A DNA stretch of 64,000 nucleotides from a virus. This document shows, piece after piece, positions 9,266 through 63,477 of the stretch (the stretch's first letter is position 1; each line of letters starts with the position of its first letter). Position numbers and translations under genes: made by a program. The notes under the pieces are model-generated. The model had not been told where the DNA came from. It did no database searches and saw only the letters and a list, made by a program, of their open reading frames with translations. The stretch covers positions 1-64,000 of IMG/VR virus record IMGVR_UViG_3300021479_000016. One strand, 5' to 3'.

Positions 9266-9763
9266 ATGACAATGCAGACAATCAACCTCACACCAGTTGC
9301 GGTTATCCCGCAACGCGGACGTGGCCGCCCCCGTATAGAGGACAGCAGGCTTTTCGTAGAGCTGACGCGCGAAGAGCAGATCGAGCGCTGGGAGCGTGTG
9401 CGGCACGTGCTGCGCAACCTTAGTAAGCACCAGATCGAGAAGCACTTCGACATGTCTGACTGGTTGCGCAAGACGCCCTGCGGGACCATTGGATGCGCGG
9501 CCGGGCAGTGCGCACTGGATCCATGGTTCAATCGCCGTGGATTTAGGGCAATCTGGAGCAGGTCTGAGGTACCTGATTTCACCATCGAGCCTGATGATTT
9601 CTTCGGCCAGGACGGGTACAGACTTGTGTTTGTGGACCGCAACAGCATGAAGTACTTCGATGCAGTAGAATGTGAGTGGGTAGAGCGTAAGCCCAGCGCT
9701 CAGCACCGGATAACGCTGCGCAACGTCAACCAGTACCTGAAGTCCCTGAAGGCGCAGGCGTGA
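9266..9763 (+). CDS. Conserved phage hypothetical protein (165 aa)
   Basis: AGGAGATTTTTGAG precedes ATG 9266. An early basic stretch IPQRGRGRPRIED looks like an AT-hook-type GRP motif. The centre HFDMSDWLRKTPCGTIGCAA and GQCALDPWFNRRGF contains three close Cys residues and resembles a family of phage proteins of unknown function. The GRGRPR stretch suggests contact with DNA. The stop overlaps the next gene as GTGA. Confidence 0.65.
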   Translation: MTMQTINLTPVAVIPQRGRGRPRIEDSRLFVELTREEQIERWERVRHVLRNLSKHQIEKHFDMSDWLRKTPCGTIGCAAGQCALDPWFNRRGFRAIWSRSEVPDFTIEPDDFFGQDGYRLVFVDRNSMKYFDAVECEWVERKPSAQHRITLRNVNQYLKSLKAQA

Positions 9764-10389
9764 GTATCTTCTTCGACTGCGAGACTAGGCGCACCAGTGA
9801 CCCTGCGGTGATCGCGCGGCTGAAGGCGTCCGTGCAGCCCCCTGGCAACATCTCCAAGGCTGAGACACTGGCTGCCTGGTGGAAGGAGAAGGCCCCGGCG
9901 GCGCAGCTCGCCGCTGTTGAGCAGACGTCATTAGACGGGACGTATGGCCGACTGGCGAGCTTTGCGTGGGCCGTTGGCACCAATTCGGTGAAGTGTGTGT
10001 ACGGCGACGACGAGCTTGGGATGCTGCACGCCGTGGCGCTGGCGTTCACAGACCAAGGCAGGGGGCAACTGGTGGCCTTTAACGGCGAGTTCGATCTGCG
10101 CTTCCTGATGCAGCGAATGGTCATTAACCGGGTTCCTGTTCCGACCGCTATCAGGGCGGCGCTGAGCCAGCGTGACGGGTACTTCGACCCGATGAAGGAG
10201 TGGATGGGGTACCGTGGGTACATCAAGCAGGTCGAGCTGGAGCGCGTACTCGGCATCCCACGTGAGGACGACATCACCGGGGCTGACGTCGGTACGGCTA
10301 TTGACGCCGGGGACTGGGAGTCCGTCGAGCGGCACAATATCGCCGACGTAGAGAACCTTCGGTCGATCTACCACAGGATGATGAAATGA
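9760..10389 (+). CDS. DnaQ-like 3'-5' exonuclease
   Basis: A 209-residue protein with GTG start in a GTGA overlap. It shows exonuclease motifs of the RNase H-like fold: FFDCET at 4-9 (Asp6, Glu8), LVAFNGEFDLRFL at about 106-118 and ERHNIADVENL at about 193-203. It appears to be a stand-alone proofreading or RNA-trimming exonuclease of the DEDD class. No polymerase domain is fused. It precedes the PRPP/NAD gene pair in one tightly coupled string. Confidence 0.8.
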   Translation: MSIFFDCETRRTSDPAVIARLKASVQPPGNISKAETLAAWWKEKAPAAQLAAVEQTSLDGTYGRLASFAWAVGTNSVKCVYGDDELGMLHAVALAFTDQGRGQLVAFNGEFDLRFLMQRMVINRVPVPTAIRAALSQRDGYFDPMKEWMGYRGYIKQVELERVLGIPREDDITGADVGTAIDAGDWESVERHNIADVENLRSIYHRMMK

Positions 10390-11255
10390 AGGTCATCGAC
10401 AGCGACAACTACGCAGCCAGCGGCATTGAGACTTTTTTCTTTCCGGGAGGCGAGCCGCACGCACGCATCCCAGAGAACTTCGGGGATGCTCTGCTGTTTC
10501 TCAAGCCGCGCACCTGGAACGACGTCGGCCTGGCTATGTGCGTACTGAATGCGCTGTACTACCAGGGTCACACGAAGAACCGCAAGGTGTGGTTGTTCTG
10601 CCCGTACTTCCCCGGGGCCCGTCAGGACCGCACCGACTACCGTACACCGGTCACGCGAGAGATGATCGGGCGCATGCTCGGGCAATACGTGAACAACTTA
10701 TACACCTTCGACTTACATTCATCGGTGCACTTCGCCGGGCTGCGTATCAAGCGCAACTTCATGCCTCGCGATCTGGTGATTGATCCATCACCAGCGCCAG
10801 GCGACGCGTACATCATCGCACCCGACCATGGGGCTATCGGACGGGCGCAGGATACGGCCGATGCCGCACAGATCCGTAACCCGGTGATCGTGTGCGAGAA
10901 GACACGAGACTTCGCCACCGGTAAGTTCACCGGCTTTAAGATGCCACCATTACCGGGACCTGGATCGTATGTGGTCATAGATGACATCTGCGACGGCGGC
11001 GGCACATTCAACCTGCTGGCTGAGGAGTTCGTGAAGGATCCATACGCTAAGGACAGCGAGCTGGCTCTGTGGGTATCGCACGGCATCTTCTCGAAGGGCC
11101 TGAATGCGATACACCCCAAGTATGAGCTAATCATGACCACCGACAGCTGGCAGCGTAATGATATCACCGGCACCGTGCATGACCCCAATAGACTGTATGT
11201 GGTATCATTGCAGCCCGTGATCGATAAGATACTGAAGGATGCTGAAAATGTTTGA
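10386..11255 (+). CDS. prs: PRPP-synthetase-family protein (ribose-phosphate or ADP-ribose pyrophosphokinase)
   Basis: The 289-residue product keeps the phosphoribosyltransferase-fold hallmarks of PRPP synthetase: FPGGEPHARI (19-28), PYFPGARQDR at 73-82 (ATP site), DLHS at 109-112 and the PRPP loop VVIDDICDGGGTF at 196-208. It is shorter than cellular enzymes (about 310-320 residues). It overlaps the NAMPT-like gene by 8 bases. Two readings are possible: it makes PRPP for NMN synthesis, or it is an Adps-type enzyme that makes ADP-ribose pyrophosphate, as in the phage NARP1 pathway. The sequence alone does not decide. Confidence 0.85.
   Translation: MKVIDSDNYAASGIETFFFPGGEPHARIPENFGDALLFLKPRTWNDVGLAMCVLNALYYQGHTKNRKVWLFCPYFPGARQDRTDYRTPVTREMIGRMLGQYVNNLYTFDLHSSVHFAGLRIKRNFMPRDLVIDPSPAPGDAYIIAPDHGAIGRAQDTADAAQIRNPVIVCEKTRDFATGKFTGFKMPPLPGPGSYVVIDDICDGGGTFNLLAEEFVKDPYAKDSELALWVSHGIFSKGLNAIHPKYELIMTTDSWQRNDITGTVHDPNRLYVVSLQPVIDKILKDAENV
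11198..11208 (+). promoter_or_regulatory. Extended -10 candidate before nadV-like gene
   Basis: TGTGGTATCAT inside the 3' end of the PRPP-synthetase-like gene, identical to the site before ref. A transcript starting near 11215 would give the NAMPT-like gene a leader of about 33 bases with AAGGA. It could boost that gene separately. It also encodes protein, so coincidence is possible. Confidence 0.35.
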
Positions 11256-12732
11256 CCTTATTTCGCTGTTCGACTTTTACAAGGCTGACCATCGTCGTCA
11301 GTACCCCCAAGGAACAGAGTATGTCTACTCCAACTTCACCCCTAGGGCGAGCCGAGTACCAGGCGTTAATGAGGTTGTGTTCTTCGGGCTGCAATATTTT
11401 CTCGCAGCCTATTTCCAAGAGCTGGCTAACGAGACTTTCTTCGGAAAGCAGCGAGGGGCCGTTTGTAAGCGATACCAGCGTATGCTCGACTCCGGTCTCG
11501 GGCCAAACAATATCGGCACCCAGCACATCGCAGATCTCCATGACCTGGGATATATCCCACTGCGATTTAAGGCTCTCCCAGAAGGAACTCGCGTCCCTCT
11601 CCGGGTGCCTATGTTCACAGTGGAGAACACAATTCCTGAGTTCTTCTGGGTTACCAACTACTTCGAGACCATCCTCTCCAACGTCCTCTGGAAAGCCTGC
11701 ACAAGCGCAACAACAGCTCACGCTTTCCGCAAGACCCTTGAGTTATATGCTCAGCGAACTGGAGGCGATCCTGGCTTCATCAATTGGCAGGGCCACGACT
11801 TCAGCTTTCGGGGCATGTCTGGCCCAGAGGATGCGGCTCTCAGTGGAGCAGGACATCTGCTCAGCTTCACCGGCACCGACACCGTACCAGCAATACAGCT
11901 ACTTGAGCGGTATTACTATGGGCAACCTGGTCTCGGTGGTAGCGTAGCCGCTACCGAGCACAGCGTTATGTGCGCGGGTGGTCAGGATGGAGAGCTAGCT
12001 ACTTTCGAGCGGCTGCTCGACGTGTACCCGTCAGGAATCCTGAGCGTGGTCAGCGACACCTGGGACCTGTGGAAGGTGCTGGCGTACATCCTGCCGCAGC
12101 TCAAGTATCGTATTCTGGCGCGCAATGGTAAGCTTGTGATAAGGCCGGACAGCGGAGACCCGGTCGACATCCTGTGCGGCACCGAGAAGCCGGAGATCAT
12201 GACAGCCGACTTTCGGCCGGAGCGCGACGCCCGGTACGCGGGGGTTGTCGAGACCCTGTGGAACATCTTCGGCGGCACCGTTAATGAGGCTGGGTACAAA
12301 GTCCTGGATCAGCACATCGGCGCGATTTACGGGGACAGCATTAACCGCGACCGGGCGGCGCAGATCTGCGAGCGGCTAAAGGCCAAGGGATTCGCGTCCA
12401 CGAACGTGGTATTCGGTGTGGGTAGCTACAACTACCAGTACGTCACCCGGGATACCTTTGGGTTCGCGATGAAGGCTACCTGGGCGCAGGTAAACGGCGT
12501 AGAGCACGAGCTATTCAAGGACCCGGTGACAGATGACGGGGTCAAGCGCAGCGCCCGTGGACGGCTTGCTGTGGCCGAGTTCGTCGACGCCCCTGGGAAG
12601 CTGCACCTGATCGATGGCCTGCGCAAAGATTCAGACCAGATGACCGGCAACCTCCTGGAGGAGGTCTGGTGCAACGGCAAGTTCAAGAAGAAGCACACGC
12701 TGGCAGACATCCGTGGAAGGCTGCGGCGGTGA
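11248..12732 (+). CDS. nadV: Nicotinamide phosphoribosyltransferase-like (NAMPT or Namat)
   Basis: A 494-residue protein, close to the usual NAMPT length. Active-site blocks of the family are present: FTGTDTVPAIQ (substrate Asp), VAATEHSVMC (catalytic His), SVVSDTWDLWKV, LVIRPDSGDPVDI (Arg and Asp for phosphates) and VVFGVGSYNYQYVTRD near the C-terminus. The ATG at 11248 is preferred because AAGGA lies eight bases upstream; ATG 11239 is also in frame. NAMPT joins nicotinamide to PRPP to give NMN. In NARP1 phages a relative joins nicotinamide to ADP-ribose pyrophosphate to give NAD(+) directly. The gene overlaps prs, so both are made together. Confidence 0.9.
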   Translation: MFDLISLFDFYKADHRRQYPQGTEYVYSNFTPRASRVPGVNEVVFFGLQYFLAAYFQELANETFFGKQRGAVCKRYQRMLDSGLGPNNIGTQHIADLHDLGYIPLRFKALPEGTRVPLRVPMFTVENTIPEFFWVTNYFETILSNVLWKACTSATTAHAFRKTLELYAQRTGGDPGFINWQGHDFSFRGMSGPEDAALSGAGHLLSFTGTDTVPAIQLLERYYYGQPGLGGSVAATEHSVMCAGGQDGELATFERLLDVYPSGILSVVSDTWDLWKVLAYILPQLKYRILARNGKLVIRPDSGDPVDILCGTEKPEIMTADFRPERDARYAGVVETLWNIFGGTVNEAGYKVLDQHIGAIYGDSINRDRAAQICERLKAKGFASTNVVFGVGSYNYQYVTRDTFGFAMKATWAQVNGVEHELFKDPVTDDGVKRSARGRLAVAEFVDAPGKLHLIDGLRKDSDQMTGNLLEEVWCNGKFKKKHTLADIRGRLRR

Positions 12733-13193: not shown

Positions 13194-13616
13194 ATGAGCG
13201 ACCACTACTTTGTGCGCACGATTGGTGGCCTAGCTCCGGTCGATGACGCATCCAAGGAGGCCCTCAACTTCTACGGCACCGGAGAGGTTCTGAGGGTTAA
13301 GATGCACCGCGACCGCAACCCGCGCCATCATCGGCTATTCTTCGGTTTGCTAAACCTGGTGTTCCAGAACCAGCAACGCTACCTATCCCAGGAAGCGCTG
13401 AGGTTCGCGATCACTATCCAGGCAGGGTACGTGGACGAGATTCGGCTGAGCGGAGACCGTGTTGCGCTGAAGCCTAAGTCGATCAGCTGGGGCAAGATGG
13501 ACCAGCACGAGTTCTCACTTTTTTATCAGGCGGCTCTCAAAGCGATCCCGGAGCTGCTGCCCGAGCTGGGTACTGTCGACTGGGAGCGCGAGTTACTGAC
13601 ATCAGGAGTGGTGTGA
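13194..13616 (+). CDS. DUF1367-like protein
   Basis: AAGGTTTTTAACC precedes ATG 13194. The 140-residue protein shows VLRVKMHRDRNPRHHRLFFG followed by LLNLVFQNQQ, the signature of DUF1367-type phage proteins, which often sit in nin-like recombination regions. The second half has KSISWGKMDQHEFSLFYQAA. Biochemical function is not established. Its stop is next to the MazG-like start. Confidence 0.7.
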   Translation: MSDHYFVRTIGGLAPVDDASKEALNFYGTGEVLRVKMHRDRNPRHHRLFFGLLNLVFQNQQRYLSQEALRFAITIQAGYVDEIRLSGDRVALKPKSISWGKMDQHEFSLFYQAALKAIPELLPELGTVDWERELLTSGVV

Positions 13617-13969
13617 TGACATTGAATGAGTTTGCGAAATGGGTAGAGGCTGGCTGGACGCGTAAGGTAGGCAGCGAGCAGGATGCGGTCAGGGAGCTGG
13701 CTGTGATGACGCTGGGGCTGTCTGGCGAGGTAGACGAGGTGATCGCAGAGATCCGCAAGGGCACAGGCGCAATCACGGAGCGCGTCAAGAAGGAGATCCG
13801 TGGGGATGGGCCACTGGATCGGAACAAGCTGCTGCTGGAGCTGGGAGATGTGCTACACTACACTTGCCGCATTGCATCGCACTACGGACTAGAGATGGAT
13901 TCCGTGATGGAAGCCAATGTTGAAAAGATCGAAGCACGGCGCGGTAAGCGCGCATGGGAGACGAAATGA
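13616..13969 (+). CDS. mazG: MazG-like nucleotide pyrophosphohydrolase
   Basis: A 117-residue all-helical protein. LGLSGEVDEVIAEIRKGTGA (Glu-x3-Glu metal site) and LLELGDVLHYTCRIASHYG (Glu-x2-Asp) make the two metal-binding helices of the MazG/dUTPase-like fold. The ATG at 13616 (TGATG) is seven bases from AGGAG; a GTG at 13613 is less well spaced. MazG-like phage enzymes hydrolyse (d)NTPs and may also lower ppGpp. It belongs to a set of nucleotide genes at 13.6-14.9 kb. Confidence 0.85.
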   Translation: MTLNEFAKWVEAGWTRKVGSEQDAVRELAVMTLGLSGEVDEVIAEIRKGTGAITERVKKEIRGDGPLDRNKLLLELGDVLHYTCRIASHYGLEMDSVMEANVEKIEARRGKRAWETK

Positions 13970-14400
13970 CAACTTACTATTTGGCTGGGCCGATGTCCGG
14001 CATTCCGCAGTTCAATTTTCCGGCGTTCTTCGCCGCCGCCAAGGATCTGCGTGATCGCGGGTTCGATATCGTCAGCCCGGCCGAGTTGGACGATGAAGAG
14101 GATAAGGGCGCCGCCCTCAAGTCTGCCGACGGCGCACCCGGTACCGGCACCAGCGGCGGCCAGAAGACGTGGGCCGACTTCCTGGCGCGCGACGTAAAGC
14201 TGATTGCTGACCAGGTGCAGGGCATCATCTACCTGCAACCCGATTGGTACAAGTCGCGCGGCGCACGCCTGGAGTCGTTCGTAGGTCTCCTGCAGAGCCA
14301 AGACTTCGAGTTCCTTGAGTACAATGGACCCTACGAGCCGGTGACCGACATCGACCGCGAGGACGTTCTCAGCATCATCTACACGGAGATGATAGGGTGA
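13966..14400 (+). CDS. DUF4406 / nucleoside 2-deoxyribosyltransferase-like protein
   Basis: The start at 13966 makes an ATGA junction with mazG. The 144-residue protein begins YYLAGPMSGIPQFNFPAFFA, a hallmark of the nucleoside 2-deoxyribosyltransferase-like fold, and continues with FLARDVKLIADQVQGIIYLQ and PDWYKSRGARLE. Family members cleave or exchange glycosidic bonds of nucleotides; some act on dNMPs. An insert at 50-70 (Ala/Gly/Ser-rich) is unusual. The exact substrate is unknown; nucleotide or NAD-related metabolism fits its neighbours. Confidence 0.75.
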   Translation: MTTYYLAGPMSGIPQFNFPAFFAAAKDLRDRGFDIVSPAELDDEEDKGAALKSADGAPGTGTSGGQKTWADFLARDVKLIADQVQGIIYLQPDWYKSRGARLESFVGLLQSQDFEFLEYNGPYEPVTDIDREDVLSIIYTEMIG

Positions 14401-14873
14401 CGCTTACTCGTGAGCGGGAACTTATGAATGATCGTGTGCTTGTCACTAAGGACACCAACCCCAAGGACGCCATCGGGATCACGAAGCTGCCGCTGCACCT
14501 CGTCAGCCCCATCGTAAAGGCGTACCAGGCGATTGCGCACTTCCTTGGCAACGTCAAGTACGGCGCCTGGAACTGGCGCGGGGGCGGCGCACGTGCCAGC
14601 GTGTACGTATCTGCGCTGGCCAGGCACATCGACCGGTACTGGGAGGGTGAGTGGTACGACAGCGACGGCACACCGCACCTGGCGAACGCTCAGGCGTGCA
14701 TCAACATCCTTATCGAGACGCACCACCTGAAGAACATCGTCGACGACCGCCCCGCCAACGGCATCGACCTGAACCCGGTGTACGCCGAGATGGAGGCCAT
14801 CATGGTCAAGATTAAGGACAAGTACGGGCACCTAACACCGAAGCAGCACACCCGGGATAGTGTGGTACAATGA
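14397..14873 (+). CDS. dATP/dGTP diphosphohydrolase N-terminal-like protein
   Basis: A GTG at 14397 lies eight bases behind GGAG; ATG 14424 is an in-frame alternative. TNPKDAIGITKLPLHLVSP, then AIAHFLGNVKYGAWNWR and YVSALARHIDRYWEGEW match the N-terminal domain of phage dATP/dGTP diphosphohydrolase-type proteins, also seen as a stand-alone gene. With mazG and the DUF4406 protein it forms a nucleotide-editing trio. The catalytic role of the isolated domain is not proven. Confidence 0.7.
   Translation: MTLTRERELMNDRVLVTKDTNPKDAIGITKLPLHLVSPIVKAYQAIAHFLGNVKYGAWNWRGGGARASVYVSALARHIDRYWEGEWYDSDGTPHLANAQACINILIETHHLKNIVDDRPANGIDLNPVYAEMEAIMVKIKDKYGHLTPKQHTRDSVVQ
14861..14871 (+). promoter_or_regulatory. 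Extended -10 candidate at 14.87 kb
   Basis: TGTGGTACAAT, with hexamer TACAAT at 14866-14871 overlapping the ATG at 14870. The same overlap of -10 and start codon is seen at 8094. Transcription would begin near 14878 and serve the zinc-ribbon gene at 14991. Confidence 0.4.
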
Positions 14874-16004: not shown

Positions 16005-16919
16005 ATGGTAGTCATCGGCAGCCAAGCCTTGCGGACGTACACGGAGCTGGACAGGATCCCGAGGGACCTGGATCTTGTCGGCTCGTACAAGGAGATGCTT
16101 AAGCTGGTAGAACCAGGATCTCCGTGCTACCCCACTGACGGTGGCAAGAAGTACGTCCTCAAGAACAAGGTGCGCGTTGTCGAGTTTGAGATCACGTGGC
16201 CTGGTTCGACTGCTGAGATGATCGTTAACCTGTGCGGTGACAGCACCGTGGCGCCAATCGAGCTGTTGCTGGCGCTGAAGATGTCTCATCGCTTCAAGAA
16301 GAACAGCAAGCACTTCCTGAAGACCATGGACGACATCCGGCTGATGCGCAGCATGGGCGTTACCGTACCAGACAAGTACCTGACGCTCCTAGAGGCGCGC
16401 ACAGCAGAGGCGCTGGATTACGCGCACCCCAAGCTGAGTGTGTCGAAGGCTGAGTTCTTCAGTCCGGTCGTCAAGTACGTGTACGATCACGACAGCATTC
16501 ACATGGTTATGAAGCACCAGGATCGGCCCGCATATGAGTACTTCAAGCCGCCAGGGTCAGAGGTGCTTACCAGCCGTCTGATGTTTGAGCAGCTGCCGAT
16601 AGGTCTGCAGCTGAATGCGGTGCTGGAGGAGGCGTACGTCCTCGCGCTGGAGCGCAGCCAGATCCCGTACCGTAACAAGATCTACCCACGCGCAAGCTTC
16701 CTGATTGCGCTGGAGAAGGTCTGCACCAGCATCACCAGTGGATGGTTCCGTGAGTTCGCCTGGGAGCATTACTACGACGTTCTTAAGCTGTACCACGATA
16801 CGTACGTGAGCCGCTTCTGGGCGCACGTGGGTAGCGGCAAGGTGATGCTACACCACGCCGCCAGCGCTGAAAGCTCCAGCTTCACCGCGCACGACCCGGT
16901 CACGGGCCTCCTCCGGTGA
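16005..16919 (+). CDS. Nucleotidyltransferase-like protein
   Basis: A 304-residue protein opening with VVIGSQALRTY and RIPRDLDLVG: the GS motif followed by Asp-x-Asp as in minimal nucleotidyltransferases of the Pol-beta superfamily. A third acidic position may be VVEFEITWPG. The C-terminal 150 residues are helical and contain YDHDSIHMVMKHQDRPAY. Similar phage proteins are annotated only as conserved domains of unknown function. NMP or tRNA-end transfer is possible. It ends inside the convergent giant gene with a 72-base overlap. Confidence 0.7.
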   Translation: MVVIGSQALRTYTELDRIPRDLDLVGSYKEMLKLVEPGSPCYPTDGGKKYVLKNKVRVVEFEITWPGSTAEMIVNLCGDSTVAPIELLLALKMSHRFKKNSKHFLKTMDDIRLMRSMGVTVPDKYLTLLEARTAEALDYAHPKLSVSKAEFFSPVVKYVYDHDSIHMVMKHQDRPAYEYFKPPGSEVLTSRLMFEQLPIGLQLNAVLEEAYVLALERSQIPYRNKIYPRASFLIALEKVCTSITSGWFREFAWEHYYDVLKLYHDTYVSRFWAHVGSGKVMLHHAASAESSSFTAHDPVTGLLR

Positions 16920-19900
16920 TATTCCTAAGCGATCTGCCAGCTTACCTATTTGTGTGGATAGGATCTCTAGCTTTGGTGCTCCTATCGCAGATTTTACCCC
17001 GGTTTGTGGAGAGAACGCGCCCCACGCCAGAGCCTGAGCAGGAACACTTTCAAGACCAGCAGGACCCGCCACTCGATCACGCCACCATGGCGCAAGAGTT
17101 TGCATCTCTGGAGTGCTCACGGAGGAACCTGGAACTATTTCCTGCCCCTTTAGTGTGCGCATGTTCCTGGTGTCAGCAAGCCCTACTGCACGGGCCCAGT
17201 GAGCGTCCCCAACCGGAGTCGACGTCTGAAAGCCAGTTTCTGGAACGCCGCTGGCTGCGATGTACATAGGCACCTTAGGTGACTTCATCTGCATCTCACC
17301 GCTCTCCAGGTACTGCTGCATGGGAAGCGCTTGACTCCTATGATAGACATGACCTGGAAGGTCCGCCATGTCGGCAGGCCGACCGGATGAACCTGAATCC
17401 TCCACCCCACCCCCGTAGCGTACGAAGTCATTGAAGCGCCCCTGCGTGTGCAGCGCATTCGCAGTTGACCCACGAGCGATCTCTGAACCGACGTCAGATC
17501 CTGGTGATGCCATTCCGCTCAGTGTATTAAACTGCTTGTATCGTGCGATCGCCTCATCGGGGCCGAACTCCTTAACGAAGTGCTGAAACAGAGGATCCAT
17601 TGCGTACCAACCCGTCATCCCCTGATACAGACCAGGTGCCTTGCGAGCTTCGCCGAGAACGTCAATTAGGCGTTGCTCGTTCTGCGGAGTCATTACGTCG
17701 CGAGCTGATGCTGCTCCTTGTGGATTCTGCTTTTCCCCTGGCAGAACCCCAAGTTCATTTCCCTGCCTGGACAGAGACAAGTCTGAGAGATCGGCACGTG
17801 ATACTCCAAACAATCGCTGCATTAGAGGATCTTCAGGACCAACTTTCGCTGCCGCGTCTGCGATCACCTGGCGTGGATCTCCGTACACTCCAGGGAACGC
17901 ATTCCGTTTCGGGTTCACCACTGTCTGCTGACCTGCAGTCCACGGAGTACTGGGGCGAGCGCTGTAGTCAGCCTCGCTGGCCATAGGGTGCTTCGAGCTT
18001 AAGCCAGACTGAAGGTACTTGTCTATTAGCTCCGAAGGCTCCATGCTCTCTGGGTCTTGCGGCATCTCGGGCGCGTGAGTGCCAGTGCGTATGAAGTGAT
18101 TACCATTGTCGTCGCTGGTGATGTGCAGCACAGCCTGCGGATCTTCACCTAGCACATGCTGGTTCTGCATCATGAAGTCGTGGATCTCATCTGGGTCTGG
18201 TGCGTGGTCAAGCGCAACGGTAGACTCGGGGTCTGATGTCACGCTACCAGAGCGATGCAGGGCCCCTGTGGACGGGCTGTAGGTGGCCCCGCCATACTGA
18301 GCGACGTGCTCCGCGAGAGGCGCGGCCTCAGCAGCCGTAGCCGTCAAAGGCAGATGTGATACCTGCTGTATGGCGTCACCGATCAAACCAGCTCCCTCAA
18401 CCCCGCCGCCATCCGCGTAGCTGCGCACTTCACCACCGGCTGCGTGATTGATGTCCTGCGTACCGGGATCGAACTCGCCCGTGTTGCCGACAGCGGACTT
18501 CACCTGAGACGGGTCGAATGCGACGTATGAGTCGGCCGGGTTGTCGCCAGCTGAGTGCATGAAACGGCGGTATGCTTCGTCTGCCAAGTGATATTGCCCA
18601 GCAAGTGCCTGGTACTGCGCATGCTGCTCTGGAAATTGAGCCGCCGCCGCATCCATATCTCCCGCGCCGCGAGATGCGGTATTGGCGCCAGTAACTGTAT
18701 CCCAGTACGGCTTGTTGGCTGGGTCTTGCAAGAACGCCTGCCGCTTCTGCTCCGCATCCTGCCGCGCCAGCTGGATCGCAGGCGGCATGTCGGGTTCGCC
18801 ATTGTTAGCGTACACGATGCCGTCGTAGCCGTGATCCTGCAGCACCTTGCGCAGCTGGTGGTTGTTCTGTGTGGCTGCGACGGCCTTTGGGTCTATACCA
18901 GCAGCCTCTGCTGGGTACATGGCATTTTCATCTGCGCCGTGCTCTCCCTCTCCTAGCAGGTACTGCTTCAGCTGGTCGTGGCCCCACTCCCCAAGATCTG
19001 GGGTGCGCAACGGGTTCTGGATGCTAAGGTACGCGGGTATAGTGCGCTGACCAGATACCTGATTCTTGGGCACCGGATTAAGGTCTCCGGTAGTGCGCGA
19101 TGATTCCTCGACAGCGGGCGGCACGCGCCCCTGTACAGCGGCGCCGCGCATGTTGGCCTGCCCCTTGGTACCAAAGTGGCTGCCGATGTCGCCACGGTAC
19201 GGCCTGAAGGCAGAGAAGTCGTTCAACGCGTCGGTGTTGTGGTACACCGGTATAGGCTCGCCATTAGTGTAAGAGACGGCAGTATTTTTGGCCCAGTCGT
19301 GGAAGTTCTGGATAGCCTGCGGATTGTCTGCGTATTTCGCCTTCAACGCAGCCGGTGTCGGCAGCCGGGCGGCGGTTGCGAGCGCATCCCCTAGCACTCC
19401 CACCTCTCCGCCCTCGGCGAATGCCTGGCTGCCTATGTAGGACGCATTAGGAGGCGGCAGTGGGCCGTTCAGGTCGAGGATTGGTTCTGGTGGCGGCCTA
19501 TCGGCTGCGTCGCGTCTGGCGGCCTCTCCTTCGCGCTCCAGGGCCTCCGGGAGCGAGTTTAGGTGCACTCTACCGGGATCTGTTGCCGTGAACCTGAGGG
19601 GACTTACAGCAGCCAGCGGGTTATCATCCTGGGGCGCACCCTGAGTATCAGTCGTGGGGTCGTAGTGCGGGTTAGGGATCTCTTGCTTGCCGCCCAAATC
19701 GAATATCGCCTTCTGGTTGGCGCCCTTTGCCTTCTCCATGGCGCTATCCAGGTTGGGGTCGACGTGCGACACATCCAGGTAGTGCATCCCGGAGTCGTCC
19801 TTGTCATGCCAGGTACCGAGGTGCGCGCCAGGATCCTTGTCGAATGCGTCCTGATTGGCCTGCACGTAGTCGCTCAGGTTGCGGCCCGTTGGCGGGGTGC

Positions 19901-21263
19901 CCATCACTGTGGCGCGGCCGGGATGTAGACTGACGGAGTACCCGGTATCAGGTATGTTGCTCGTGCCAGGGTGATAGGTAGACCCGCCGTTATCTGCGTG
20001 GTACTGCGCCAGGATGTCATACGGACTTGGCGGTGCCTGACTGAACTCATCAGGCAATAACCCAATCTTCTGTGGGGCGTACACCGTATCTGCGCCGCTA
20101 GTAGTTCGGTTGGCCTCACCATGTGGACCGAAGTTCACCCAGCTATTCTGGCCACGGGTTTCGGTGGTCATAGCTGGCCGGGCTGCAGGGGAGTACATCG
20201 CTGCGTGATTGGCCCACGCGGTCTCTTCGCCGTTCGCCCTGAAGGTGTTGCCCTCCTTAGCGTGCCCGAAGTAGTCGTGCACCGCACGGAATATGTCGTT
20301 GTTCGTCGCAGGTACGCCGTTGAAACTCTCACCAGACTGCTGCAGCAACGGGTTGCCGCCAAGGTCGCCGCTGCCGAAGCCGCTCTCCGTCGGGAACACA
20401 AACATGTGATTATTCTGCTGGATGTCGTGCAGCGTGTCGCTGATCTTCGGGTACGGGTTCTGACCCTGTGGCATGAACTCAGCCCGGAAGCCAGATGCCT
20501 TCATGGCCTGGTACTGCGCCATCGTCTCCTTAATCATCGCATCATACGACGCCGCCACCTTGGGGTCATTGGGGGCGTGAGGCATCGCGTCGAATGCTTG
20601 CGCGATGGCGCTGGCACGATTAGGATCTACCTTCAGTGGAGCGCCCGGCGGCACGTGCGGCAGACCGGCGCTCTTCATGTAATCAGCGGCGACCTGGCGT
20701 ATGCGGTCACTCGGCCCCAGGGTGCGCGCAACATCAGCGGCGGCTCCAGCGGCGGCCCTCTCTTCTCCCAGCCCGGGAATAGCCGCCTGCGGGGCGGTCT
20801 CGAAGGCAGCATGCGCGGCAGCTGCTGCCGGGATACCGGCGTACTTTTGGATCAGCGGCTCTGCGGCGCCTTGCATCGCATTGTACTTACTGCTCAGCGA
20901 GTGCGCGAGGTCGCTTATTCCTGTCGCCTTCCCGACGGACCCCAGGTTATCCATGAGGCGCTGCACGGATGACTGCCCCTCGGGGCTGATGGACTTTGGC
21001 CCCAGTAGGGCTGCGGTCTCGTCCACGTGCTCATTGGATCCCAACGGGCTGCCCATGGCCTCGTAACCGGCTGCGCTCTTTGCGAGAAGTGCGTGCCCCA
21101 CCGACTTTGCTGCATCAAGATCTCCGCCCATCCGCCCAAGTTCGACCTTAGCCAGCGTGCGCGGGTCCCCGCCCTGCGGCGTGTACAGCACATGCCCGAG
21201 GCGCGACAACGCACCGCTGATATCTACCGGCTTGTCTTCTGTGTTATACGGGTTCTGATCCAT
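16848..21263 (-). CDS. Large polyvalent virion protein with ADP-ribosyltransferase-like domain
   Basis: The 1471-residue protein is the last of the virion module. Residues about 190-405 hold a conserved phage domain with NNDIFRAVHDYFGHAKEG and ETRGQNSWVNFGPHGEANRT. Residues about 425-530 and 985-1080 are two related copies (GGxTYxP..., DFMxxNxxxLxxDPxA...). Residues about 672-930 look like an ADP-ribosyltransferase: PVYHNTDALNDFSAF, GSHFGTKGQAN, HGYDGIVYANNGE, DSYVAFDPSQVKSA. A further conserved block lies at about 1190-1450. AxGG motifs (FAEGGEV, YADGGGV) occur at domain borders. Such proteins are packed in the capsid and injected; toxin or anti-host functions are inferred. Confidence 0.8.
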   Translation of the reverse strand: MDQNPYNTEDKPVDISGALSRLGHVLYTPQGGDPRTLAKVELGRMGGDLDAAKSVGHALLAKSAAGYEAMGSPLGSNEHVDETAALLGPKSISPEGQSSVQRLMDNLGSVGKATGISDLAHSLSSKYNAMQGAAEPLIQKYAGIPAAAAAHAAFETAPQAAIPGLGEERAAAGAAADVARTLGPSDRIRQVAADYMKSAGLPHVPPGAPLKVDPNRASAIAQAFDAMPHAPNDPKVAASYDAMIKETMAQYQAMKASGFRAEFMPQGQNPYPKISDTLHDIQQNNHMFVFPTESGFGSGDLGGNPLLQQSGESFNGVPATNNDIFRAVHDYFGHAKEGNTFRANGEETAWANHAAMYSPAARPAMTTETRGQNSWVNFGPHGEANRTTSGADTVYAPQKIGLLPDEFSQAPPSPYDILAQYHADNGGSTYHPGTSNIPDTGYSVSLHPGRATVMGTPPTGRNLSDYVQANQDAFDKDPGAHLGTWHDKDDSGMHYLDVSHVDPNLDSAMEKAKGANQKAIFDLGGKQEIPNPHYDPTTDTQGAPQDDNPLAAVSPLRFTATDPGRVHLNSLPEALEREGEAARRDAADRPPPEPILDLNGPLPPPNASYIGSQAFAEGGEVGVLGDALATAARLPTPAALKAKYADNPQAIQNFHDWAKNTAVSYTNGEPIPVYHNTDALNDFSAFRPYRGDIGSHFGTKGQANMRGAAVQGRVPPAVEESSRTTGDLNPVPKNQVSGQRTIPAYLSIQNPLRTPDLGEWGHDQLKQYLLGEGEHGADENAMYPAEAAGIDPKAVAATQNNHQLRKVLQDHGYDGIVYANNGEPDMPPAIQLARQDAEQKRQAFLQDPANKPYWDTVTGANTASRGAGDMDAAAAQFPEQHAQYQALAGQYHLADEAYRRFMHSAGDNPADSYVAFDPSQVKSAVGNTGEFDPGTQDINHAAGGEVRSYADGGGVEGAGLIGDAIQQVSHLPLTATAAEAAPLAEHVAQYGGATYSPSTGALHRSGSVTSDPESTVALDHAPDPDEIHDFMMQNQHVLGEDPQAVLHITSDDNGNHFIRTGTHAPEMPQDPESMEPSELIDKYLQSGLSSKHPMASEADYSARPSTPWTAGQQTVVNPKRNAFPGVYGDPRQVIADAAAKVGPEDPLMQRLFGVSRADLSDLSLSRQGNELGVLPGEKQNPQGAASARDVMTPQNEQRLIDVLGEARKAPGLYQGMTGWYAMDPLFQHFVKEFGPDEAIARYKQFNTLSGMASPGSDVGSEIARGSTANALHTQGRFNDFVRYGGGVEDSGSSGRPADMADLPGHVYHRSQALPMQQYLESGEMQMKSPKVPMYIAASGVPETGFQTSTPVGDAHWARAVGLADTRNMRTLKGQEIVPGSSVSTPEMQTLAPWWRDRVAGPAGLESVPAQALAWGAFSPQTGVKSAIGAPKLEILSTQIGKLADRLGISPEEARDRVVRGEAGAFSAGGVV

Positions 21264-22114: not shown

Positions 22115-22627
22115 TTACTTGAGTATCCGCAGGTTCTTGATGAGCGCAAGCGTGCCGAACTGCACGCTGATGATCTCTAGCCCGAACTTAAAGCCGCGCT
22201 GCCTGCACGCCTTTAAAACACGGTCGCTCCAGTCATCCGTGCTAACAATAGCATCCCAGGTGTACTGCATGATAGTGTGAGCTATCTGACCTGAGCAGCT
22301 ATCAGCTATGGCGTGATCGGCGTTCTCGACTTCGAGCAGTGCCACTTTGATGTCGCGCACCTTGTACGTGATAACAGCCTCGAAGCCCACCTGCTTACCG
22401 TCCTTGAGTGTTACGCTTTGCGCCGTAAGGGCATGTGTGCGCGGCACAACGTGCTCGTGCTCGTACTGATCTATCCCGAATGGGATCATCCAGTTCCAGC
22501 CCGGATCCAGTACCCTAACGAATTTCCCTAGCCGAAGCTTGACACCTGACTCGTACGGGGCCATAATGACCCAGAAGCGAAATAGATCCACACATCCGAC
22601 AAGTAGATCTACGAGTTTGTCGAACAT
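22115..22627 (-). CDS. SPFH/Band 7 (stomatin-like) protein
   Basis: A 170-residue protein. An N-terminal hydrophobic segment (LVDLLVGCVDLFRFWVIMAP) leads into ESGVKLRLGKFVRVLDPGWNW, the classical start of a stomatin domain. VTLKDGKQVGFEAVITYKVR is the next conserved strand pair. The coiled-coil tail found in most stomatins is missing. It is the second SPFH gene of the window and lies within the virion module, downstream of a small plus-strand frame. Membrane scaffold or protease control is inferred from the family. Confidence 0.82.
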   Translation of the reverse strand: MFDKLVDLLVGCVDLFRFWVIMAPYESGVKLRLGKFVRVLDPGWNWMIPFGIDQYEHEHVVPRTHALTAQSVTLKDGKQVGFEAVITYKVRDIKVALLEVENADHAIADSCSGQIAHTIMQYTWDAIVSTDDWSDRVLKACRQRGFKFGLEIISVQFGTLALIKNLRILK

Positions 22628-45873: not shown

Positions 45874-45944
45874 TGGCAGGCCGCGATGGAATCGAACCAC
45901 CCGTCATGCGCTTTGGAGGCGCTGTACCGCCCAGCTGGCGGCCT
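45874..45944 (-). tRNA. tRNA-Trp(CCA), short D arm
   Basis: Leftward 71 nt. The acceptor AGGCCGC/GCGGCCT is perfect, discriminator G, CCA encoded. Anticodon loop is CTCCAAA (CCA) and the T arm GGTGG-TTCGATT-CCATC is good. Only 12 bases lie between position 9 and the anticodon stem, against 17 in normal tRNAs, so the D arm is truncated or shares bases with the anticodon stem. Confidence 0.7.
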
Positions 45945-51783: not shown

Positions 51784-53349
51784 TTAAACGCCGTAGGGGT
51801 TCGTGGGAGCGGTTCGTGGGATGCGACCGGTGTCGTCCTCGCCAGAGTGCTGGGCGAGGCGCTGCTTGGCCAGGCGGGCCTCTGCCTCGCGTAGCCACTG
51901 GTCCTCGATGACGCGCCATGCCTGCGTGGTTGTATCCAGCAGGTCATCGTGCAGCGTCGTGCCCTCACCCGAGTAGCTGCATAGCTGCTCAAGCAATGGC
52001 TCGGCCCAGGTGGTGAACTGCCCCGGGTTCTGGACAGACTCGGGTATCCAGATAGTTCCACGGGCAGGCAAGTATGATACCACATGCAGCCTGGTGAGCT
52101 TACTAGCCTTACCTGGGTTGTAGGGCCATGTCAGTATCTTCTCCTTTGCCAGCTGCTGGATCAACGACTTACCGCTGGCCTTCTCCTCGATCACGATGAG
52201 ATCGATCTTCTTGCCCTGCCGGGTTGGCGTCTGCCGCCTGCCGTTTATCATCGGCATCTTCACCAGTGGTGCGTCGATCTTACCGTACTTGATCGCCTTC
52301 TCCTTGATGACGGTGTCCACTAGGTCTGGGAAGCCAAGCTTCTCTGCCCAGCAGTCGAGCAGCATGATGCCCGGCTTGCCCTGGTGGATAAACCCACCCC
52401 AGACGCTGCACGCGCTCGGGTCGGTCTCCTTGGTCTTCTCGTCATAGCTCTCCTCACTGAAGGCAGTGTCTAAGCTCATGACGATGTAGTGTAACTCTGG
52501 GAACGGCTTATCGGACGGCCACTTGCGCAGTTGACTGCGCTGCACAATCCCGCCCTCCTCGCTATCTATCAGCTCGGCATGGATCTCCTGTCGGCCGATC
52601 TTGGTACCCTCGTACTTGAGGATACGCTTAGCGAACTCGCCGGAGAGGTTGCTAAGGTTGACGTACGTTGACGCAGTGGTGACCACCGTAGATTTATCAT
52701 TGAGTAGGGACTTGATGTGTGGTAGAGGGCGAGGAGTAGTCGTCGCCAGGATGCGTGTGTCATCACCGAGCCGGACAGACAGCGCCATGGTATCCCATGC
52801 GTCCTGCGGATCTCGCCCGTTATCACCCCAAGCCGCAAGCTCATCGCACCATGCTTTGTGCCACTGGGGTCCTCTGAATCTTGTTGATTTCTCTGCACTT
52901 ATACCTCCCAAGATGCTGCCGTTATGCAGCGTGATCTTGTGCTGGCTGATGTTGTAGTCCTTAACCAGCGACGTCGGTATGATGCTGATTAGGCCGGATT
53001 CGCCCTCGAAGCAGGTGTTCCGTAGGTCGTTCGATGTAGGAGCAGCCACAAGGCCACGGAAGTGCTTGCCATTCCTGTCCTTGCCCGTTGTGGCGGCGCC
53101 CATACCGATCCACTCGGCACCAACACGAGTCTTTCCCGCACCTCTTCCACCAAGAATGAGCCACACGGACCAGGGCGTCCCATCCACGTCCGCTGGAACG
53201 ACCTGGTGCTCGTGCCTGGTCTCTGCCCATCGGCACGCCCAGGCGAGCCTGGTGACCTGGCTGTCGTCAAGGGATCTAAGGGCTGCGGCTGCTTGGTCAC
53301 GGGTAAACCCTTGGCGTAGCGCTATCTCTAGGACGTCTGATGCTTGCAC
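51784..53349 (-). CDS. terL: Terminase large subunit
   Basis: A 521-residue protein from GTG 53349, overlapping the upstream gene by 22 bases. The ATPase has LILGGRGAGKTRVGAEW (Walker A 67-74) and HKAWCDELAAWG (Walker B). The nuclease half has YIVMSLDTAFSE, LIVIEEKASGKSLIQQL and TTLHDDLLDTTTQAW for metal-binding acids. The last 40 residues are basic. It packages DNA through the portal. Confidence 0.92.
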   Translation of the reverse strand: MQASDVLEIALRQGFTRDQAAAALRSLDDSQVTRLAWACRWAETRHEHQVVPADVDGTPWSVWLILGGRGAGKTRVGAEWIGMGAATTGKDRNGKHFRGLVAAPTSNDLRNTCFEGESGLISIIPTSLVKDYNISQHKITLHNGSILGGISAEKSTRFRGPQWHKAWCDELAAWGDNGRDPQDAWDTMALSVRLGDDTRILATTTPRPLPHIKSLLNDKSTVVTTASTYVNLSNLSGEFAKRILKYEGTKIGRQEIHAELIDSEEGGIVQRSQLRKWPSDKPFPELHYIVMSLDTAFSEESYDEKTKETDPSACSVWGGFIHQGKPGIMLLDCWAEKLGFPDLVDTVIKEKAIKYGKIDAPLVKMPMINGRRQTPTRQGKKIDLIVIEEKASGKSLIQQLAKEKILTWPYNPGKASKLTRLHVVSYLPARGTIWIPESVQNPGQFTTWAEPLLEQLCSYSGEGTTLHDDLLDTTTQAWRVIEDQWLREAEARLAKQRLAQHSGEDDTGRIPRTAPTNPYGV

Positions 53350-61756: not shown

Positions 61757-62017
61757 TTACGCCCTATCAGGCATCCTTGCAAGCCCCCAGATACTTTTTA
61801 TTTTGACCCACTTGTGGCCCATATCCTGGTTGCACGCGAAGCACGATGCCACGATGTTGCGCTGCTCTGGAGGGGACGGCTGCCCCCTAAGGTTACTACC
61901 CCTGGGCCATCTATGGTCCGACGTCACATCCCGCCACGCAAGCTCACAATCGCACCAATAACACTTCTTGTTCTGCCGCAACCATGCTGTACGTCTTCTC
62001 TTTTGGTGGCTAGTCAT
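61757..62017 (-). CDS. HNH endonuclease (86 aa)
   Basis: ATG 62017 overlaps the helicase stop as TGATG. KKCYWCDCELAWRDVTSDHR with WPRGSN and IVASCFACNQDMGHKWV is a complete Cys-x2-Cys / DH / Cys-x2-Cys-N HNH core. Small HNH proteins in phages may be homing or packaging nucleases. Here it is coupled to a UvrD-like helicase. Confidence 0.82.
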   Translation of the reverse strand: MTSHQKRRRTAWLRQNKKCYWCDCELAWRDVTSDHRWPRGSNLRGQPSPPEQRNIVASCFACNQDMGHKWVKIKSIWGLARMPDRA

Positions 62018-63477
62018 CACGCTTCCTCCTCGATAAGCACAAGCTTTTCTTGTGCCCTGGTGGTCGCCACGTAGCACAAATTTCTCTCCTGCTCCCTCTG
62101 CCACTGCTGCTTCGCCCACTGCGCCGGGCACTTGGAGCTATTCAGCCAGTACACGGTCTTAGCCTCGGATCCCTTCGCCTTATGGATTGTGCTGAGAACG
62201 GTGACGTTCTTTTTGTCCGCAAACAAGCCGTCGATGACCTCTACCAGAGCGGGCACGGTGCGCTCGGTCTCAGGCAGGGTGTCGATCAGAAACAATATGC
62301 AATCCGCTTTGTCGCGCACCTGCTCCATCTTGGCGTCGTCCTTCTTAGCTCGGGCCTTCTCGACCTCGCGGGCGCGCCATGACTGGATCTTGGCCTCCAG
62401 CGCCGGGATGCCCTTGGCGTTCATGCGCTTGATGAGGGACTTCAGGCCATCGCCTATGTCCTTGCCCAGAATCTGCACAGGGATGCGGGCCTTCAGCATC
62501 TTGTACGCCACACCTATCAAGGGGGCCGTGGTGCGGCAGATAACCAGGTCGTTGGCTACGAACTGCTTAACGCTCCAGGCGTCCCCCAGGGACTCCACGG
62601 AGCCCTCAATCGCACCCGGGGCTGCCTCGATGTGCTGCACCCACTGGTGCGCGTGCTTCACGACCGCAGTCGGGCACCGGTAGGTCACGGTCAGCGGCAG
62701 CTGGATGGCGCCGAACTCGGTCACGGCCTTATCCATGCTCTCGGACTCAGCGCCACGGAACCCGAAGATGGCCTGCGCCCGGTCGCCAACCAGCAGCAGC
62801 CTGGTCTTGGCGTGCATGATCTTGCGCAGGATCGCTACCTGGATGCTGTTCGTGTCCTGGTACTCGTCGACGACGATGAAGTCGTACTTCTGCAGACTGA
62901 TGCCGTCCTTCACCGCGAGGTACAGCAGGTCGTCGAAGTCGACCGCCGGGGCCGCATTGGAGGCCGTCAGCAGCTCCGAGGCGTACCGGATCGCGGTGTG
63001 GAAGTCAGCGTCCTCGTGATCCAGCTCCAGGTTGTGGTGGTCAGCAAGGTCGACCCAGCTCTGCTCGATGTCCGGCAGCAGGCAGCCGATGCCCGCGTTC
63101 TTGCCTAGCCCGATCAGCTTCAGCAGGAAGGGGCCGTACATGCGGGCCTCCTTATCCCCGAAGCGGGCGTCGATCATGTCCCGGGTCTTGCTGGCGGTGA
63201 CCTCGCGCAGCTTCTTGGCGCGCAGCACCGGGTTGAAGCACAGGCTGTGGAAGGTGCGTGCGTTCACGCCCTTCGCCTTCAGGTCGTCCGCATTCCGCTT
63301 GCCGAACGCCAGGAACAGGGTGGACATCCCGGGGAACTTCGCGATTACCTGCCGGATGGCCTCGACGACCGTGGTTGATTTGCCAGCGCCAGCCACAGCC
63401 TCGATCACCGCGTTACCGGTGCCGCTGGTGGCGAAGTCGAATATCGCGCTCTGCTGAACGGACCAGACGCGGCTCAC
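62017..63477 (-). CDS. UvrD/Rep-like superfamily 1 DNA helicase
   Basis: A 486-residue helicase with all SF1 motifs: Q motif SVQQSAIFDF, Walker A AVAGAGKSTT (27-36), Ia, Walker B FIVVDEYQDTN, III VGDRAQAIFGFRGA, IV LTVTYRCPTAVV, V VLSTIHKAKGSEAKTVYWL and VI RNLCYVATTRAQEKLV. It would unwind 3'-5' and could remove proteins from DNA or act in recombination. It is shorter than UvrD (about 720), lacking some 2B-domain parts. Confidence 0.9.
   Translation of the reverse strand: MSRVWSVQQSAIFDFATSGTGNAVIEAVAGAGKSTTVVEAIRQVIAKFPGMSTLFLAFGKRNADDLKAKGVNARTFHSLCFNPVLRAKKLREVTASKTRDMIDARFGDKEARMYGPFLLKLIGLGKNAGIGCLLPDIEQSWVDLADHHNLELDHEDADFHTAIRYASELLTASNAAPAVDFDDLLYLAVKDGISLQKYDFIVVDEYQDTNSIQVAILRKIMHAKTRLLLVGDRAQAIFGFRGAESESMDKAVTEFGAIQLPLTVTYRCPTAVVKHAHQWVQHIEAAPGAIEGSVESLGDAWSVKQFVANDLVICRTTAPLIGVAYKMLKARIPVQILGKDIGDGLKSLIKRMNAKGIPALEAKIQSWRAREVEKARAKKDDAKMEQVRDKADCILFLIDTLPETERTVPALVEVIDGLFADKKNVTVLSTIHKAKGSEAKTVYWLNSSKCPAQWAKQQWQREQERNLCYVATTRAQEKLVLIEEEA

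Follow-up and report, generated by a model that had tools for sequence, protein, structure and literature searches.

The overlapping pair of genes at positions 10386-12732 very probably constitutes a NARP1 module, carried by an uncultivated phage that was analysed over a window of 64,000 bases, the first part of the 67,937-base IMG/VR virus record IMGVR_UViG_3300021479_000016. What had been put forward as a live option in an earlier note on this DNA is now clearly the best answer. This reading is built on features that can be observed, namely the genes, their predicted folds, their active-site and clamp residues, their pairing and their family placement. Analogy with characterised relatives is the basis for proposing the two reactions and a role in counter-defence. 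A host defence of the NADase type would split NAD+ into ADP-ribose and nicotinamide, the Adps enzyme would move pyrophosphate from ATP onto ADP-ribose to give ADP-ribose pyrophosphate (ADPR-PP), and the Namat enzyme would couple ADPR-PP with nicotinamide to form NAD+ directly, without an NMN adenylyltransferase. It can be hypothesised that the NAD+ pool would be restored in this way and that infection could proceed.

The first gene (10386..11255, + strand) encodes an Adps-like protein of 289 aa (ADP-ribose pyrophosphate synthetase, Prs fold), assigned from phrog_619, the tree and the AlphaFold2 fold, and the second (11248..12732, + strand) a Namat-like protein of 494 aa (nicotinamide ADP-ribose transferase, NAMPT fold), assigned from SPbetaL1 Namat as best PDB match, the contact residues and the tree. 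Both open reading frames are intact, and they overlap by 8 bases from the ATG at 11248, in agreement with the earlier description of overlapping PRPP-synthetase-like and NAMPT-like genes with intact active-site motifs; if translation started instead at the ATG at 11239, the Namat-like protein would have 497 aa and the overlap 17 bases. A PolB-type exonuclease gene upstream (9760-10389, +) overlaps the Adps-like gene by 4 bases, and a small DUF7695 gene downstream (+), with a possible start at GTG 12729, would overlap the Namat-like gene by 4 bases as well, so that the pair sits among closely packed genes of one strand. Further downstream lies a nucleotide cassette (13613-14873, +) that encodes MazG, a DUF4406 protein resembling nucleoside 2-deoxyribosyltransferases according to PHROGs, and the N-terminal domain of a dATP/dGTP diphosphohydrolase; the latter (14397-14873) prompted the idea of a Z-genome, which was set aside as no match to the adenylosuccinate synthetase family was found. 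The terminase, portal-like protein and head protease/head protein genes identify a tailed phage. Its terminase (51784-53349, -) is nearest to those of Caulobacter phages GB2A, RLK and RW (44% identity), its helicase (62017-63477, -) is nearest to those of Pseudomonas and Xanthomonas phages (58-59% identity), and a single tRNA-Trp is present (45874-45944, -); the phage is a mosaic, and its host is probably one of the Pseudomonadota. It also encodes two SPFH/Band 7 proteins (1581-2423 and 22115-22627, both -), the first of which has weak relatives near NARP1 genes in contigs L015 and L031. As expected of PADLOC, a library of defence and not anti-defence systems (2023), none of six window proteins, the pair among them, had a match.

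The likeness of the two proteins to the PRPP-synthetase and NAMPT families, pointed out earlier, lies far beyond chance. In profile searches, the Namat-like protein matches NCBIfam NF006629 (E 7e-167) and phrog_448 (E 1.8e-191), and the Adps-like protein matches phrog_619 (PHROGs, ribose-phosphate pyrophosphokinase; E 4e-48). When PDB sequences are ranked against the Namat-like protein, the two SPbetaL1 Namat structures (E 1.8e-162) precede HdNadV (9ke8, 1.9e-131) and mammalian NAMPT (~1e-72), and its AlphaFold2 model (pLDDT 90.8) has SPbetaL1 Namat as top solved structure (TM 0.93, 50% identity). The NAMPT-type catalytic core is whole in the alignment (F185, R188, D211, R299, D301 and the catalytic H238), and columns invariant among divergent relatives are also kept in both window proteins. 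The NAD+-contact residues of SPbetaL1 Namat have been listed, together with an adenine "selectivity clamp" formed by R40 in a loop and by the helix motif GSX-phi-X-phi-X-phi-TRD, whose third and seventh positions are aromatic; in NARP1 Namat, the stacking position of the clamp loop is taken by Arg, or by Lys or Tyr along with the residue that follows (PMC12774641). Alignment with the window protein shows identity at 18 of the 20 contact positions and conservative replacement at the other two (A362 -> S364, F392 -> Y394), and the predicted adenine clamp is complete (R36, Y394, Y398 and D402). R36 (codon 11353..11355, +), which aligns with R40 of SPbetaL1, is predicted to stack on the adenine from the clamp loop, and the clamp helix, located by alignment and tallies, reads GSYNYQYVTRD (residues 392-402, codons 12424..12456, +), which fits the published motif (PMC12774641) including both aromatics. 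By comparison, the positions of R40, F392 and Y396 are K/G/K in human, K/G/Q in KVP40 and P/A/Q in ACP17 Nampt, and the helix position is of the GGGLLQ or GGALLQ type in human, KVP40, RB43 and ACP17, as against GSYNYQ in the window. The pocket, whose comparison had been suggested earlier, matches characterised Namat and not classical NAMPT.

The Adps-like protein had no match in a Pfam search and scored 75.1 bits with the curated Prs model TIGR01251, under the cut-off of 113 bits. Its AlphaFold2 model (pLDDT 89.5) adopts the Prs fold, with TM values of 0.74-0.81 and 16-20% identity when compared with Prs of human, E. coli and others. In Prs, a loop that reads DDMIDTGGTL in E. coli holds the 5'-phosphate of ribose-5-phosphate. 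The counterpart of this loop in the window protein, found by alignment and tallies, is DDICDGGGTF (residues 199-208, codons 10980..11009, +); the classical type DxxDTGGT is absent, and the alignment with E. coli Prs also shows PDHGA against PDIGG and DLHS against DLHA. Among Adps-like proteins encoded near Namat genes, DD[IL]CDGGxTF is present in 77/89 viral and 59/59 bacterial sequences and DTGGT in none, the Prs side of the comparison being a few cellular sequences, with E. coli and Thermoplasma in alignment and tree. CDGG is typical of Adps and not obligatory, since the SPbetaL1 Adps, which served in published NAD+ assays, reads DDLSSFGGTF. The residues behind the specificity of Adps for ADP-ribose are unpublished and have been termed obscure (PMC12774641); DDICDGGGTF, PD.GA and D.HS are common to the window Adps and that of L-cluster mycobacteriophages. 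The short length of the protein, which the earlier note had taken as a pointer to NARP1, does not discriminate: the Adps proteins compared measure 250-302 aa and overlap with archaeal Prs chains of 284-287 aa.

The family placement is corroborated by two trees. A single branch (support 100/100) splits 55 proteins into 46 Namat-like and 9 Nampt, and among 46 Adps and Prs proteins the two cellular Prs are split from every phage and bacterial Adps (support 100/99). The Namat-like protein lies on the Namat side and the Adps-like protein, in the comparison with both families proposed earlier, with Adps and not Prs, beside IMG/VR contigs L083 and L084 in each case. The Adps of the window phage and those of its closest relatives (L003, L004, L015, L031, L075, L083 and L084) make up a separate subclade, well supported and with a long branch, at ~27-34% identity to the characterised Adps proteins used for comparison. 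The subclade enzyme could conceivably act on a different ADP-ribose compound (e.g. cyclic or modified, from a particular defence), which would make the module a NARP1 variant with an altered input, a proposition that we regard as very unlikely. With respect to the substrate of the second enzyme, HdNadV (PDB 9KE8, 9KEO), which is 43-44% identical to the window Namat-like protein with TM ~0.90, is instructive: it belongs to the Namat side of the tree, yet its motif GAQTYQRNTRD has neither of the clamp aromatics (positions 3 and 7) that the window motif has, and its structure was determined with NMN. Placement in the clade is thus not enough to establish the substrate, and it is the clamp residues that bear the argument. 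HdNadV, on which no publication was found in a literature search, suggests that substrate preference is able to change within the Namat clade, and it calls for caution over NARP1, as does the best identity to a tested Adps, 34%.

The known systems nearest to the window pair include two phage NARP1 modules. That of the Bacillus phage SPbetaL1 (Namat structures 9W5X and 9W5W; PMC12774641) has the same gene order, adjacency, Namat fold and full clamp; the Namat proteins are 51% identical, whereas the Adps proteins share merely 27% identity over 178 residues and differ in the loop. In E. coli, NARP1 of SPbetaL1 gave rescue from the Kongming defence and NARP1 of Paenibacillus foliorum gave rescue from SPARSA (PMC12774641). 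Purified gp77 (Adps) and gp79 (Namat) of the Mycobacterium phage DyoEdafos produced NAD+ from ADP-ribose in vitro (PMC13232231); they are 34% (Adps) and 52% (Namat) identical to the window proteins, with the same DDICDGGGTF loop and the same type of clamp motif. In DyoEdafos, the RyDEP gp78, which cleaves cyclic ADP-ribose signals, is located between gp77 and gp79, whereas none was found in the window contig: a direct search with gp78 was negative, a better test than the RyR profile, which had no match in the contig and also matched none of the control genomes. Relatives of gp78 are encoded immediately 3' of the Namat gene, or at its end, in two related viral contigs (L010:5534-5803 and L013:5358-5804). 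The nearest pair overall occurs in the uncultivated phage contigs L083 and L084, where the genes stand in the same order and identity is 58-59% for Adps and 62-63% for Namat, although the gene content around it shares little with the window in the stretches compared. The Nampt of the Acidovorax phage ACP17 (NadV-NadM type), in contrast, has the NAMPT fold and is ~32% identical to the window Namat-like protein, but has no clamp (P, A, Q) and no Adps nearby, and is adjoined by an NMN adenylyltransferase-Nudix gene.

The same opposition is observed across viral loci, where the pairing counts give a clean contrast between clamp-type Namat and clamp-less Nampt. With the two window proteins as queries, 82 IMG/VR loci were retrieved, all with the clamp signature, and 76 of them have an Adps gene within ~4 kb, upstream of Namat and on the same strand in 72 of these 76. 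The search with ACP17 Nampt yielded 35 loci, 33 of the clamp-less GG type and two untypable, and 0/35 have a nearby Adps gene. These sets were drawn from few queries, with an Adps profile derived from phage sequences, that of the window among them, and constitute a contrast and not a census.

The profiles CTP_transf_like (NMN adenylyltransferase superfamily) and NUDIX, both positive in all 14 control genomes, found nothing in the whole 67,937-base, possibly incomplete contig. The absence of an NMN adenylyltransferase or Nudix partner, noted earlier for the window, is consequently true of the entire contig, including the NMN adenylyltransferase gene elsewhere in the phage that had been named as evidence against NARP1. 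A DUF7275/DUF7277 protein (16005-16919, +) has relatives in some Acinetobacter phages annotated "putative nucleotidyltransferase"; it gave no hit with the profile of the NMN adenylyltransferase superfamily. The macro domain was likewise not detected in the whole contig (profile search, controls positive), and the proposal of a DyoEdafos-like RyDEP or macrodomain feeding the pathway was set aside, neither being found in the contig. The ADP-ribosyltransferase-like domain reported earlier is present, as an ART-PolyVal domain (PF18760, E 3e-11, residues 667-931) in a polyvalent protein of 1471 aa (16848-21263, -), and has little weight as an argument for NARP1.

The main alternative to NARP1 is classical salvage, in which a phage PRPP synthetase and a phage NAMPT would provide NMN and the NMN adenylyltransferase of the host would finish NAD+. 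Both proteins do show Prs and NAMPT folds, many annotators name such genes accordingly, and SPbetaL1 Namat also accepts PRPP in vitro (PMC12774641), so that some NMN synthesis by the window enzyme is possible by analogy. We nevertheless consider this route very unlikely, as the window protein has the Namat-typical clamp residues that are missing in Nampt, the ribose-5-phosphate loop is altered with a score under the Prs cut-off, both trees separate the pair from Prs and Nampt, and 35/35 clamp-less Nampt loci are without an Adps-like neighbour; a classical Prs with a NAMPT was rejected on the clamp, the loop, the cut-off and the tree. Salvage of the NadV-NadM or NARP2-like type was also rejected, no partner gene being found in the contig (possibly incomplete) and the clamp residues not being of the GGGLLQ type.

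It can also be asked whether NARP1 chemistry would chiefly recycle the NAD+ used by the phage's own ADP-ribosyltransferase instead of countering a defence. The ART-PolyVal domain encoded by the same phage speaks for this use, but protein ADP-ribosylation frees nicotinamide while ADP-ribose stays on the target, so that a hydrolase would be needed, and the contig has no detected macrodomain. Given also that published NARP1 modules guard against NADase defences (PMC12774641), recycling as the chief role appears very unlikely. That the two genes have decayed, or are carried along without activity, seems extremely improbable, the frames being intact and overlapping, with R299, D301, D211, H238 and the invariant columns kept. 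A NARP1 module directed against NAD+-depleting defences is the reading that we retain.

NARP1 was described recently and has already been reported from several phage groups, and the window pair is very probably a further example of it; the pair adds a lineage distant from the characterised modules, in a phage whose terminase is nearest to those of Caulobacter phages. NARP1 is also present in some bacteria (PMC12774641). Clamp-type Namat genes, 56-61% identical to that of the window, are carried chromosomally by Flavobacterium, Pedobacter, Tenacibaculum and others (loci L137-L216, mostly Bacteroidota), and an Adps gene lies within 5 kb of Namat in 59/80 of these loci. An NrtR-type regulator gene (Nudix + winged-helix) accompanies 47 of the 59 Adps-bearing loci, and a gene for an ADP-ribose-releasing enzyme, ADP-ribosylglycohydrolase or NADAR, accompanies 29 of them, often along with a metallophosphoesterase (example loci L144:2580-6440, L160:142-6449 and L138:2190-6455). 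These NrtR-Adps-Namat clusters look like a cellular route turning ADP-ribose back into NAD+, for which our literature search found no publication in Bacteroidota. Public records mostly name the NARP1 enzymes PRPP synthetase and nicotinate or nicotinamide phosphoribosyltransferase, and the Namat clamp and the DDICDGGGTF-type loop of Adps offer two residue tests that help to decide, for a phage contig, between NARP1 and classical salvage. These residues mark the chromosomal clusters of Bacteroidota and so bear on the source from which phages acquired the pathway.
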